64,000 nucleotides of DNA, from assembly GCA_014695195.1 (NCBI GenBank), contig JACJNW010000032.1:124001-188000 (forward strand), given 5' to 3'. A program made the position numbers and the translations under genes. Of this stretch, positions 9,891-56,412 are shown one piece after another. The DNA comes from Cyanobacteria bacterium FACHB-DQ100. GTDB lineage: Bacteria; Cyanobacteriota; Cyanobacteriia; Leptolyngbyales; Leptolyngbyaceae. Below the pieces are notes generated by a model, which was not told the DNA's origin, did not search any database, and saw only the letters and a program-made list of their open reading frames with translations. Each line of letters begins with the position of its first letter. The stretch's first letter is position 1.

Positions 9891-10400
9891 GTGCAATTGC
9901 TAAATGATCTATGTGTTGATCCATTTGAAAGCAACGGAGTTCTCCGAGTGATTGCGATGTCTCCTCGTCCGGTTGGACGCAATTGGAATACGGTCAGCTT
10001 TCCTTCAACGCTGTATCTTCTTCCGATTCTTGATCTTCTGCTGTCAAAAGTTCCCGCCCGCTGGAAAGCCGAGGTGAGGTTGGGATTGCAGGAAGCTCTT
10101 GTCAACGCCGCAAAGCATGGAAACTGCCTTGATCCCTGCAAAAAAGTCCTGATTCAGTTTTCAATGGTTGCTGACGAATACTGGTGGATTATTTCAGATC
10201 AGGGATCTGGATTTGAAGCGCCTGAATGCTGCTGTGTAGAAGAGGCAGAAGAACACCTTCCTCAGCATGAAGGCGAATCTGGACGAGGTTTGTACATTCT
10301 GTATCAAGTGTTTGACCAGGTTGAGTGGAATCGTGAAGGGACAGAACTAAGGCTATGTAAGCAGGTTCGGAATGCTCACCGATCGCCATTAGTAGTTTAG
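9891..10400 (+). CDS. Anti-sigma factor-type ATPase (RsbW/SpoIIAB-like HATPase)
   Basis: A GHKL ATPase fold of up to 169 residues: N box LQEALVNAAKHGN, G1 box DQGSGF, G2 box GRGLYIL. Such single-domain proteins in the RsbW/HATPase_c_2 family usually phosphorylate a STAS-domain antagonist and bind a sigma factor or another output. Start choice is open: GTG at 9891 gives the longest form, while ATG at 9957 (MSPRPVGRNWNTVSFPS) begins closer to the conserved domain. A possible partner STAS protein lies at 54.7-55.1 kb. The target is unknown. Confidence 0.8.
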   Translation: MQLLNDLCVDPFESNGVLRVIAMSPRPVGRNWNTVSFPSTLYLLPILDLLLSKVPARWKAEVRLGLQEALVNAAKHGNCLDPCKKVLIQFSMVADEYWWIISDQGSGFEAPECCCVEEAEEHLPQHEGESGRGLYILYQVFDQVEWNREGTELRLCKQVRNAHRSPLVV

Positions 10401-52413: not shown

Positions 52414-54069
52414 TCACACTTGATTTTTCAATCCGATCGATGTCTTAAATCCATCCAGATGGATGGTGTTCTCCCAGCGTTGACGGTACACCTCATAGAG
52501 TGCCATTCCTGCTGCAACTGAGGCATTGAGGCTAGGCGTAGTGCCCTGTAGTGGAATTGAAACCAGTACATCGCATCCGCGCTGCGTCATCAATCCTAAA
52601 CCTTCCCCTTCTGCACCAACAACCAACACCGAGGCTTTAGCAAATTTGACGGTATGAACTGGCTGGCTTGATTCGGAAGCTGTACCATAAATCCAGAATC
52701 CAGCCGCTTTGAGGTCTTCCAGCGCACGAGCCAGATTGACCACTCTAGCTACAGGAAGCTTTTCGATCGCGCCTGCTGCCACTTTCATCACGGTTGAAGT
52801 TACGCCCACCGCACGACGCTGCGGAATCACGATTCCCTGTGCTCCTAACGCTTCAGCCGTCCGGATAATTGCGCCTAAGTTGTGGGGGTCGGTAATGCTA
52901 TCTGCAACCACGATCACAGGCTGATCGGTTGCAGCTTTCGCACGAACAATCAAATCACCAAGATCAGTGTACTCATAAGCTGCAATTTGCGCTGCGATCC
53001 CCTGATGATTTGCACCATGTGTTAGCTGATCTAATCGCTTTGGTGTGACTTCATCGATGACTGTTCCGTTTGCTTTCGCTTGATTCAGCAATGAAAGATA
53101 GCGGGGATCATAGTGAAGCTTTTCTGTAATCCAGATGCGATTAAGCGATCGCTCCCCTTGCAGCGCACTTAACACCGGATGACGACCATAGATTAGATCG
53201 GGAGCTTCGTTGCTTTCAAATGGCTCATCATGCGACACAAAATGCTGCGGGATATCATCGCGGGCTTGCTCGGCTAAATGGTCAGGCTTGCGGGGAGCGA
53301 AGCTATCGCGTCTCTCAAATCTCGCACTGCCGTCATTTCGAGGACGATCAAAGTTCCGTTCTCTTCGTTCCCCGTTAAATTCGCTTCTGGGACGATCGAA
53401 GCTGCGTTTTTCACCATTGGGGCGATCAAAGTTCCGTTCTCTTCGTTCTCCATTGAATTCGCCTTTCGGACGATCGAAGCTGCGTCTTTCACCATTGGGG
53501 CGATCGAAATTCCGCTCTCTTCGTTCTCCGTTGAATTCGCCTTTTGAACGATCGAAACTACGTCTTTCACCGCTGGGGCGATCGAAATTCCGCTCTCTTC
53601 GTTCTCCGTTGAATTCGCCTTTTGAACGATCGAAGCTGCGTCTTTCACCGTTGGGGCGATCGAAATTCCGCTCTCTTCGTTCTCCGTTGAATTCGCCCCT
53701 CGGACGATCAGAATCCCGTCCGCGCCGCTCTCCATTGAAATCATCTCTAGGACGATCGCGCTTCTCAAATCGCCGATCGTCGTTTCTGGGACGATCAAAA
53801 CTTCTTTCTTTGCGTTCGTAGCGTCTTTCACCGCTTGAGTCTGAGCGACCCCGATTAGAGCCGTCAGCACCGGCACTGCGCTGATCTCGATCCCCATCGA
53901 AGCTGCGGTCGCGCTTTTCAAATCGGCGATCGTCAGTTTTAGGGCGATCAAAGCTTCCCTCGCTGTTGCGTTTGGGATTGCCCGACTTTTTGAAATTGGG
54001 TTTTTTACCGCCAAAGTCACGATTTGACCGACCTTGTGAGCCAGCGTTGCGGTTATTGGGAGTAGCCAT
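52414..54069 (-). CDS. rlmB: 23S rRNA 2'-O-methyltransferase RlmB with repetitive RGG-like N-terminal extension
   Basis: The C-terminal 260 residues are a SPOUT (TrmH-type) methyltransferase that modifies G2251 in the ribosome P-loop: [68 protein letters not shown] and [20 protein letters not shown] (motif 3 with knot). The first 280 residues are disordered, highly charged Arg/Gly/Asp/Asn sequence. It contains five tandem 26-residue units ([20 protein letters not shown] plus SFDRPK) and degenerate flanks. Total 551 residues, twice the usual RlmB. The extension likely binds RNA. Confidence 0.92.
53330..53720 (-). repeat. 78-bp tandem repeats encoding the RlmB extension
   Basis: The marker TTCCG(T/C)TCTCTTCGTTC recurs at 53354, 53432, 53510, 53588 and 53666 on the plus strand, an exact 78-base spacing. 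The units differ by few substitutions, so they arose by recent duplication and may vary in number between strains. Confidence 0.9.
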
Positions 54070-54160: not shown

Positions 54161-54583
54161 TTACTTAAGGTTGAGAAACCCTAACAATTCAAACAAGCGG
54201 GCAGGGTCAGTCAAATACAGATAGCCAATTAGGGCTTCTAGGCTGGTGGCGTGTTGGTAAATTTCGGGGTCAAGTCGTTTTGGGCGATTTACAGCAGCAT
54301 TGCGTCCCCGCTTGAGAAACTCATGTTCAGACTCGCTTAAATGGGGCATGAGCGATCGCAGGTGCAAGGCTTGGGTTTCTGCCCTCACGTTCGACACAAC
54401 TTGTTGATGATAGACTTCAGAACGCTTCGGTGGCAACAGACAACGCCTCCGAATATACAGTTCGTAAACTGCATCGCCTAAATACGCGAACGCAGCCGGA
54501 GAGAGCCGCTGGATCTCAGACATCGATGGCGCAGGCAAGCCTGTAGATAATTCTAGAACCCCTAACTCATTCGATGAGATCAC
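54161..54583 (-). CDS. mrnC: Mini-ribonuclease III
   Basis: A 140-residue stand-alone RNase III catalytic domain without a dsRNA-binding domain. It has LSPAAFAYLGDAVYELYIRR (the conserved acidic motif) and TSLEALIGYLYLTDPARLFE at the C-terminal part. Mini-III matures the 23S rRNA ends in Bacillus and cyanobacteria. It precedes rlmB on the same strand with a 91-base gap; this mrnC-rlmB linkage is also known in Firmicutes. ATG at 54583. Confidence 0.9.
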   Translation of the reverse strand: MISSNELGVLELSTGLPAPSMSEIQRLSPAAFAYLGDAVYELYIRRRCLLPPKRSEVYHQQVVSNVRAETQALHLRSLMPHLSESEHEFLKRGRNAAVNRPKRLDPEIYQHATSLEALIGYLYLTDPARLFELLGFLNLK

Positions 54584-54629: not shown

Positions 54630-54665
54630 AAAAAAACCGACTATCCAACCATTTGGACAGCGGTT
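54630..54665 (-). terminator. Rho-independent terminator after the STAS gene
   Basis: On the minus strand AACCGCTGTCC pairs with GGATAGTCGGTT (one bulged T), followed by a run of seven T. It is 21 bases beyond the STAS stop and separates that gene from mrnC. Confidence 0.8.
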
Positions 54666-54685: not shown

Positions 54686-55057
54686 TTAGGCAGATTGAAC
54701 ATTCTCGATCGCGGTTTCCACGGACGGTTGCAGCGCCAAAAATTGTTCTAAACGAACAAGCTTGACCGTCTGTGTGACTCGCGCATTCGTCACAATCTGT
54801 AAGGTTCCCGATGCCTGCTGCGCTTTTTTGGCAACTTGCACCAAAGCGCCCAGACCGGAACTATCAACAAAGTCAATTTTAGACAGATCTAAAATGACGT
54901 GTTTAGGGCCGTCTTCAACGCATTTTGTCAGAACTTTCCGGAAGGTTGGTTCAGAAAAAGCATCAAGTTGCCCGACGAGGCGAAAGAGTTGATATGTATT
55001 GTCCCTAACTTCGCGTGTGCCTCGAAGACTGACTGTTAGGGTTAGTTGCTCAGGAAT
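54686..55057 (-). CDS. STAS-domain anti-sigma factor antagonist, apparent ATT start
   Basis: A 123-residue SpoIIAA-type protein: TVSLRGTREVRDNTYQLFRL, LVGQLDAFSEPTFRKVL, HVILDLSKIDFVDSSGLGAL (the phosphorylatable Ser), VTNARVTQTVKLVRLEQFLA. The in-frame stop TAG lies only three codons upstream of the ATT at 55057, and no ATG, GTG or TTG occurs in that frame before the middle of the domain. A perfect AGGAGG sits five bases before the ATT, so ATT is the likely initiation codon. Such proteins are controlled by HATPase kinases; a candidate is at 9.9 kb. carA lies 72 bases upstream. Confidence 0.88.
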   Translation of the reverse strand: MPEQLTLTVSLRGTREVRDNTYQLFRLVGQLDAFSEPTFRKVLTKCVEDGPKHVILDLSKIDFVDSSGLGALVQVAKKAQQASGTLQIVTNARVTQTVKLVRLEQFLALQPSVETAIENVQSA

Positions 55058-55129
55058 AGCCCCCTCCTACCGCGTTTAAACTCTAAATTTAATTTGACGC
55101 TCCAGTATACACCGTTGCAGCAATATTTT

Positions 55130-56281
55130 CTATTGCCTGATTTCTGATTGTTTATGTTCGCGCATCGATCGCACGAAATTTTCAAATAGATAATCAGCAT
55201 CGTGTGGCCCAGGACTCGCCTCCGGATGATACTGCACTGAGAACATCGGCAGGGTTTTATGCCGTAATCCGGCAACGGTGCGATCGTTGAGATTCAGGTG
55301 AGTGATTTCGATCGAGGCATCCGGGAGCGAATCGGCAGCGAGCGCAAAACCGTGATTTTGGCTGGTGATTTCGATTTGCTGGGTCAGACCGCAGGGTTGA
55401 TTCAAGCCGCGATGTCCGAACTTGAGCTTAAAGGTTTCGGCACCCAGTGATAAGCCGAGAATTTGGTGTCCCATACAAATTCCGAAAACGGGCTTCTCAG
55501 CCTTCAAGAGTGCTTTTGTAGTTTCGATGCCCTCGGTGACAGCAGCCGGATCGCCCGGCCCGTTCGAGAGAAAGATTCCGTCTGGATTATACTTAAGGAC
55601 TTCTTCAGGCGGAGTGTTGACCGGAACAACGATCACACGGCAGCCATAACTCGCAAGCCGTCGCAGAATATTGCGCTTGATGCCGAAATCGATCGCAACC
55701 ACAGTCATCGGGTCTTCAAGGCTCGAAGCAGTCGAGCTAAATTCCCAAATCGTCTCGGTTTTTTCTGACCATTCGTAAACTTGGGTCGTACTGACTTCTT
55801 TGACGAGGTTCAATCCTGCCATGCTCGGTGCGTTCTGCACTTGTTCGAGCAGTTCGCTGGGGTCGAGCACTTCGGTTGAAATCGCGCCGTTCATTGCACC
55901 CGCCGATCGTAGTTTTCGCGTTAGGGCACGAGTATCGATGCCGTAGATGCCGAGTAAGTGGTGCTGTTTGAGATAGTCGGGCAGGGATTGCGTCGATCTC
56001 CAGTTGCTCGGACGTTCGCAAATATTTCGGGCAATCACGCCCCGGACATGCGGCACGTCGGATTCTTCATCGTCGGGATTTACGCCCGTATTGCCCAGTT
56101 CTGGATAGGTGAATGTCACAATCTGACCCCGATAGCTTGGATCAGTCATGACTTCTTGATAACCCGTCATTCCGGTATTGAACACGACTTCTCCGATCGT
56201 GGTTCCCGTTGCACCGAACGAGTAACCCTGATAAGTTGTGCCATCAGCCAGCACAAGTAACGCAGGTTGAGCAGAGGACAT
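55130..56281 (-). CDS. carA: Carbamoyl-phosphate synthase small subunit
   Basis: CarA hydrolyses glutamine and passes ammonia to CarB for carbamoyl phosphate used in arginine and pyrimidine synthesis. The 383-residue protein from ATG 56281 ([20 protein letters not shown]) shows [51 protein letters not shown] with the nucleophilic Cys, and [14 protein letters not shown] with catalytic His/Glu. An upstream TTG/GTG extension is unlikely. carB is not in the window. Confidence 0.97.
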
Positions 56282-56412
56282 AAACACAGTCAATTACAAA
56301 GATCTCATCATTATTATCATGTCTATTGCGGCTTGCAAGGGGTCTCTAAGCTTTTGCACAGAATTCTAGGGAACTCTAAGACGGTCAGGATTGAGTCCTT
56401 GGAATTCTCAGT

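Follow-up and report, generated by a model that had tools for sequence, protein, structure and literature searches.

The STAS-domain gene described here lies on the minus strand of a stretch of 64,000 nucleotides (the window) from Cyanobacteria bacterium FACHB-DQ100, between carA and a gene whose product we take to be mini-RNase III (mini-III). Features of the locus are collected in Table 1. The open reading frame (ORF) list also contains, at 52414-54069 on the minus strand, a gene with a long and repetitive Arg-rich N-terminal extension; its product is presumably RlmB/TrmH-like.

Table 1. Features at the STAS locus and the basis for each
Feature	Coordinates	Strand	Basis
STAS-domain gene, 123 codons plus stop codon (ending at 54686), ATT start	54686..55057	minus	Frame, profile hits, conserved frame opening at the ATT codon
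ATT (AUU) initiation codon	55055..55057	minus	ATT/ATC/ATA in 269/272 distinct start regions; few third-base changes
AGGAGG Shine-Dalgarno sequence, 5 bases (GGGCT) before the ATT	55063..55068	minus	Sequence and orthologues
In-frame TAG, overlapping the Shine-Dalgarno sequence	55067..55069	minus	Sequence; TAGGAGG overlap in 85/241 orthologue regions
TATACT, -10-like element of an inferred promoter	55104..55109	minus	9/12 in promoter scan; consensus match only
Terminator-like hairpin (54661-54640) plus T run	54630..54661	minus	Consensus match only
carA, upstream neighbor and control gene	55130..56293	minus	ORF list, domain profiles, canonical starts in relatives
Presumed mini-RNase III gene (Ribonuclease_3 domain), downstream neighbor and control gene	54161..54583	minus	ORF list, domain profile, canonical starts

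Profile searches matched the protein to PF01740 over residues 20 to 116 (E=6.5e-19, 68.1 bits, cut-off 22.6) and to TIGR00377 (64.4 bits, cut-off 53.45), which puts it above the curated cut-offs for anti-sigma factor antagonists of the TIGR00377, or SpoIIAA-RsbV, type and bears out the complete STAS domain that a first-pass annotation had placed on this strand. Its relatives in the PDB are SpoIIAA and TM1442. The loop DSSG, of which we take a Ser to be the phosphorylation site, is present in 271 of 272 family members, the remaining one having DSCG. Judged by these matches, the product is a STAS anti-sigma factor antagonist, with putative phosphorylation and putative binding to a kinase/anti-sigma factor.

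From stop to stop the frame spans 126 residues, with just E-G-A (GAG GGG GCT) between the TAG and ATT codons, and an in-frame start farther upstream is excluded because the TAG stands three codons before the ATT. The first canonical codon (ATG, GTG, or TTG) after the ATT is a TTG at codon 72 of 123, within the STAS domain, so a gene finder limited to such codons could recover no more than the final 52 codons. The gene is missing from the standard ORF list, which has a 60-residue floor; in view of the codons absent here, programs limited to ATG, GTG, and TTG would miss or truncate it. The first-pass annotation had seen the ATT as the sole initiation site upstream of the domain, with an in-frame TAG before it, a perfect AGGAGG five bases away, and no ATG, GTG, or TTG before mid-domain, and all of this was confirmed at the exact coordinates. 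A sequencing error behind the ATT is very unlikely, the same ATT being found in other genomes.

TATACT- or TATAAT-like elements recur in many orthologue leaders, and the TATACT and the terminator-like hairpin, as consensus matches, suggest a separate transcript for the STAS gene. No known RNA element was matched in Rfam at gathering scores between 54000 and 56400. A conserved leader hairpin was also rejected: among the five AGGAG/UUCCU pairs of the start region, none was changed on both sides and two were broken in one row each of a 16-row alignment, into which L014, L116, and L118 were entered without their upstream part. The folding z-score was never below -0.6 in five leaders.

Start regions across the class

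Orthologue-level matches to the STAS gene were found in 57 of the 58 genomes of a first set, own genome included; in that set G008 (82% complete) had a paralogue-level match only, and the match of G014 was in two pieces. A class sample gave matches in 163 of 165 genomes, the two misses being 62 to 68% complete, and a phylum sample in 63 of 146, all 63 of the window's class. The 83 nonmatching genomes of the phylum sample include 20 that are listed, one in the class (G321) and 19 outside it, the class of the other 63 not being given. G321, which is 99% complete, gave no STAS-family match at E 1e-12. Start regions were read at 309 loci, comprising the own genome, its relatives, 80 named genomes (the best 80 of the 271 places confirmed), genomes of the class sample, picocyanobacteria, and later additions; the named and unnamed sets overlap, and the 309 loci cover part of the matching genomes in the class, picocyanobacterial, and phylum samples. 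Collapsing identical start regions (37), with no other exclusions, left 272 distinct regions: 241 core, i.e., non-picocyanobacterial, and 31 with profile scores of ≤140, which we take to be picocyanobacterial. At two loci, L141 (G126) and L347 (G143), the AUU gene is followed immediately by a second, diverged STAS copy that has a Met or Val codon before its domain and may have a canonical start.

Codon 1 of the 272 regions is ATT in 209, ATC in 41, ATA in 19, and ATG in 3, so that the start is a conserved codon other than AUG, GUG, or UUG in 269; neither GTG, TTG, nor any further codon occurs at this position in the set. One 30-locus subset has ATT in 27 and ATG, ATA, and ATC in one each. The AUU reading of the first-pass annotation would have been overturned by orthologues with ATG between identical flanks, and in the three ATG regions the flanks differ. 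The motif alone is at chance level: the window contains 5 instances of AGGAGG-N4-8-ATH against 5.06 expected, and AGGAGG-N5-ATT occurs 19 times in the 5.5-Mb genome, compared with 26 for the pattern read backwards. Among those 19, only the one at the STAS gene heads an open frame of at least 100 residues with no canonical start upstream. The case is thus comparative rather than motif-based, with a recurrence over 272 distinct start regions that is far beyond chance.

Since ATT, ATC, and ATA are synonymous codons for Ile, the exclusion of an internal Ile in a longer protein had to be indirect. In 219 core sequences, the amino acid entropy is 3.9 to 4.1 bits at codons -8 to -5, then 2.5, 1.05, 2.44, and 2.93 bits at codons -4 to -1, and 0.1 at codon 1; the dip at -3 arises because the Shine-Dalgarno sequence reads there as Glu. 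Residues 2, 4, and 6 are variable (entropy 1.5 to 2.0) inside an otherwise conserved block. Of these 219 sequences, 79 have an in-frame stop no more than 3 codons upstream of codon 1, 159 have no canonical codon upstream in the open frame, and 74 have none between the upstream stop and codon 25. An ORF in another frame, starting at least 25 codons upstream and crossing codon 1, is lacking in 192 of the 239 core loci for which 300 or more upstream bases were available. The first canonical codon is found upstream of codon 1 in 83 of the 272 frames and at codons 2 to 11 in 96, and a TTG at codon 7 occurs in 46; a longer or shorter protein would have such codons available in part of the family, but the downstream ones are not conserved.

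The choice among the Ile codons also differs between codon 1 and the interior of the gene. The ATT/ATC/ATA counts are 185/25/6 at codon 1 and 743/450/86 at internal Ile codons of the core, ATT being the commoner at codon 1 (p about 1e-13, uncorrected for relatedness). On a tree built from the rest of the STAS gene, we inferred 21 changes among ATT, ATC, and ATA at codon 1, compared with 70 at the equally conserved and nearly invariant internal Ile column 66; the less conserved Ile columns 60 and 96 gave 34 and 37 (p 0.10 and 0.05), a weak contrast, so that the contrast is strong for column 66 only. Removal of the initiator methionine depends on a small residue 2. That residue is Pro, Ala, Ser, or Val, and hence compatible with methionine aminopeptidase, in 233 of the 241 core regions, and is small in 23 of the 31 picocyanobacterial ones; the rule that leads from a small residue 2 to methionine removal is given in PMC13339759.

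The Shine-Dalgarno sequence is strong and properly spaced in most core regions, with AGGAGG in 185 and GGAGG in 218 of 241, and weaker in the picocyanobacteria. GGAGG precedes codon 1 by 5, 6, 7, and 8 bases in 177, 10, 6, and 5 of 219 core sequences, respectively, and 21 are without it. Because its spacing varies from 5 to 8, the upstream bases are kept as a ribosome-binding site and not as codons.

Neighboring genes at the 80 named loci served as controls. A canonical codon lies within reach in 68/68 carA genes, 63/63 mini-III genes, 60/60 copies of a conserved small gene, and 49/49 hydrolase genes, and in 48/50, 31/32, and 13/13 copies of three further neighbors, compared with 12/80 for the STAS gene. 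The exception is the RlmB-like neighbor, with 36/61, a shortfall probably caused by a long N-terminal extension, longer than the 60 codons that the test allowed. Four more rows (20/29, 2/11, 8/10, and 10/10) are apparently shadow frames from the opposite strand.

The 31 picocyanobacterial regions (loci L246-L277) have ATC in 16, ATA in 11, and ATT in 4, and ATA is enriched at codon 1 (11/31) relative to internal Ile codons (13/138). Their Shine-Dalgarno sequences are G-rich and resemble GGGGG or GAGG, with a spacing of 9 in 21 of the 31 and 3 unrecognised. None of the 31 has a stop within 3 codons, 14 have no upstream canonical codon, and 2 have none up to codon 25; with these numbers, the start assignment in this group rests on homology. 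For the family as a whole, the regions compared here make a strong case for a start at AUU with avoidance of AUG, GUG, and UUG, and it is this comparison that establishes the position of the start, its link to a strong Shine-Dalgarno sequence, and its recurrence throughout the class.

Two of the three ATG regions (L109 and L111) have no Shine-Dalgarno match of any kind, and the third, L031, keeps GGAGG. L109 belongs to Chamaesiphon, in which the other state, ATC with AAGGAGG, is also found (L067); L111 is from an uncultured cyanobacterium whose protein is nearly the same as that of L109. The Chamaesiphon states suggest a trade-off between start codon and Shine-Dalgarno sequence, and the ATG there means that a non-AUG codon need not be kept in every lineage.

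Correspondence with Ssr1600

The closest functional reference is Ssr1600 of Synechocystis sp. PCC 6803, an anti-sigma factor antagonist that binds the anti-sigma factor/kinase Slr1861 and thereby frees SigC, the Slr1861/Ssr1600 pair controlling RNAP-SigC formation (Kurkela et al. 2025, PMC12329169). According to that study, suppressor lines that retain mere traces of Ssr1600 are viable at high CO2, and extra Ssr1600 slows growth there; the dose of the protein therefore matters. The study describes the substitutions L24S and G43V and mutations of the serines S59 and S60, and for overexpression it replaced the TTG initiation codon by ATG.

L24, G43, S59, and S60 of Ssr1600 fall on L30, G49, S65, and S66 of the consensus of 255 same-register family proteins at an offset of 6, the only one of the offsets tried (-20 to +44) that gave even three of the four residues. 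The residues L, G, S, and S are carried by 240, 210, 255, and 255 of the 255 proteins, respectively. By this correspondence, and as both are STAS-type antagonists with the reported residues at a constant offset, the STAS gene and ssr1600 are very probably orthologues. The two differ in that the published start of Ssr1600 is TTG, whereas here it is AUU, and it follows from the offset that the published TTG would be codon 7 of the family, six codons downstream of the AUU. The main text of PMC12329169, as far as it was available, has no occurrence of "start codon" and one of "TTG", and no AUU start was seen in it. Should our assignment hold, Ssr1600, a protein under study in the main model cyanobacterium, has been given the wrong start codon, an ATG construct at the assumed start may have deleted a control element, and annotation restricted to ATG, GTG, and TTG would misplace or lose the start.

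Near-cognate starts and control of the antagonist

The Escherichia coli gene infC, which encodes IF3, starts at AUU and is autoregulated. The first-pass annotation had likened the STAS gene to it; the parallel holds for initiation at AUU but not for autoregulation of the infC kind, as the STAS product is not IF3, infC sits elsewhere in the own genome, and a canonical start is available in all 28 readable cyanobacterial infC genes (31 loci, 3 unparsed). None of these has an AUU-only start, and the idea that cyanobacterial infC shares it was not supported. In the infC loci L288-L290 (genus g43), the open frame offers a single canonical codon ahead of the conserved INER motif, a TTG 18 codons upstream.

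Other near-cognate starts are known from single genes. Expression of E. coli pcnB is reduced owing to its AUU start (PMC1780047), and the likeness to the STAS gene is in the codon, the products being unrelated. Closer in setting is Streptomyces sigR, in which IF3 represses a GTC start with a AGGAGGTG ribosome-binding site and so keeps the sigma factor from exceeding its anti-sigma factor (PMC5472188). The sigR gene resembles the STAS gene in having a non-canonical start within a sigma-factor switch, and it had been misannotated to a canonical codon; it differs in encoding the sigma factor itself, from GTC, with conservation across Streptomyces, whereas here an anti-sigma factor antagonist starts from AUU, AUC, or AUA in a whole class. 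In poor medium, the starts of Staphylococcus aureus ccpN (AUA), citZ (AUA), and cvfC1 (AUU) give about 10% of the level obtained with AUG; ccpN rises to 30% of it in rich medium, with no effect of the medium on the AUU of cvfC1 (PMC13009471). Both ccpN and cvfC1 share with the STAS gene a conserved AUU or AUA start and an extended Shine-Dalgarno sequence, but their proteins are unrelated to it, and the reported conservation extends from S. aureus to B. subtilis for ccpN and among the staphylococci for cvfC1. In a reconstituted system, weak pairs, AUU with the CAU anticodon among them, were lowered when IF3 was raised, and IF3 is described as monitoring the strength of the codon-anticodon pair (PMC10158994). 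A non-canonical start with a strong Shine-Dalgarno sequence that limits a regulator is thus a kind already known, and what appears to be new is this gene and the depth of its conservation. Within the accessible part of the open-licence literature, we found neither a non-canonical start of the STAS/ssr1600 gene nor conservation of such depth, and the near-cognate starts in the papers cited here are those of single genes whose conservation goes no farther than one genus or two Gram-positive species.

We propose that translation of the antagonist begins at AUU (AUC or AUA in other lineages), placed by a near-consensus Shine-Dalgarno sequence 5 to 9 bases upstream. These AUH codons mismatch the initiator anticodon at the third base only and would be poorly accepted, and the strong Shine-Dalgarno sequence would offset part of the loss and keep synthesis reliable, the outcome being a low output of a dosage-critical antagonist. 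That output would be expected to vary with IF3 stringency and 30S availability, tying the SigC growth cascade to the translation state. Taken as a whole, an Ssr1600-type antagonist whose AUH start and strong Shine-Dalgarno sequence give low synthesis, sensitive to IF3 and the 30S subunit and linked to SigC, is the explanation we consider likely; its low level, IF3 dependence, and SigC link are inferred for this species.

The most serious competitor holds that the AUU start sets a low and constant level, a stoichiometric set-point relative to the kinase, without sensing of IF3 or ribosomes. It is possible in light of the cvfC1 result, an AUU start without medium dependence (PMC13009471), and of the switch in Chamaesiphon from ATC with a Shine-Dalgarno sequence to ATG without, in which the level is presumably preserved and IF3 sensitivity would be lost; E. 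coli pcnB, too, is described simply as reduced by its AUU start (PMC1780047). A weak Shine-Dalgarno sequence with AUG could give a low level just as well, yet 269 of the 272 regions keep ATT, ATC, or ATA and 218 of the 241 core regions keep GGAGG, and we would put the chances of a constant set-point somewhat below even. A frozen accident, i.e., an ancestral non-AUG start that is functionless now and from which the path to AUG was rarely taken, would suit a gene that looks old within the class, all 63 matching genomes of the 146 in the phylum sample belonging to it. However, ATA is one transition away from ATG and six changes to ATA were inferred, yet ATG is found in 3 regions (two inferred events), and the third base of codon 1 changes less than that of an internal Ile codon (21 versus 70), so that we regard this account as improbable. 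Least credible of all is an internal Ile with the true start upstream, out of frame through a frameshift, or at a downstream TTG or GTG, which has in its favor the canonical codons present in part of the frames and the TTG start used in the Synechocystis study (PMC12329169) and which we reject on the close in-frame stops, the variable frame of the Shine-Dalgarno sequence, upstream residues that are unconserved except for the Shine-Dalgarno codons, and the lack of conservation of the downstream canonical codons.

The class-wide recurrence of the AUH start suggests that the antagonist is deliberately made sparingly. With AUU, AUC, or AUA, usually accompanied by a strong Shine-Dalgarno sequence, kept across a bacterial class in a gene reported to be dose-sensitive at high CO2, the STAS gene offers a ready test of initiation fidelity as a bacterial regulatory signal. 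In its widest form, the proposal would be that throughout the oxygenic cyanobacteria an obligatorily weak AUH start reads IF3 stringency or the supply of free ribosomes out as the level of the SigC-cascade antagonist, and that this has been kept over the history of the class; we offer it tentatively, as a generalization that is on balance unlikely. A search of the whole own genome gave 33 matches to HATPase_c_2, one of them an anti-sigma kinase-like gene in the window itself, at 9891-10400 on the plus strand (E=3.8e-15).
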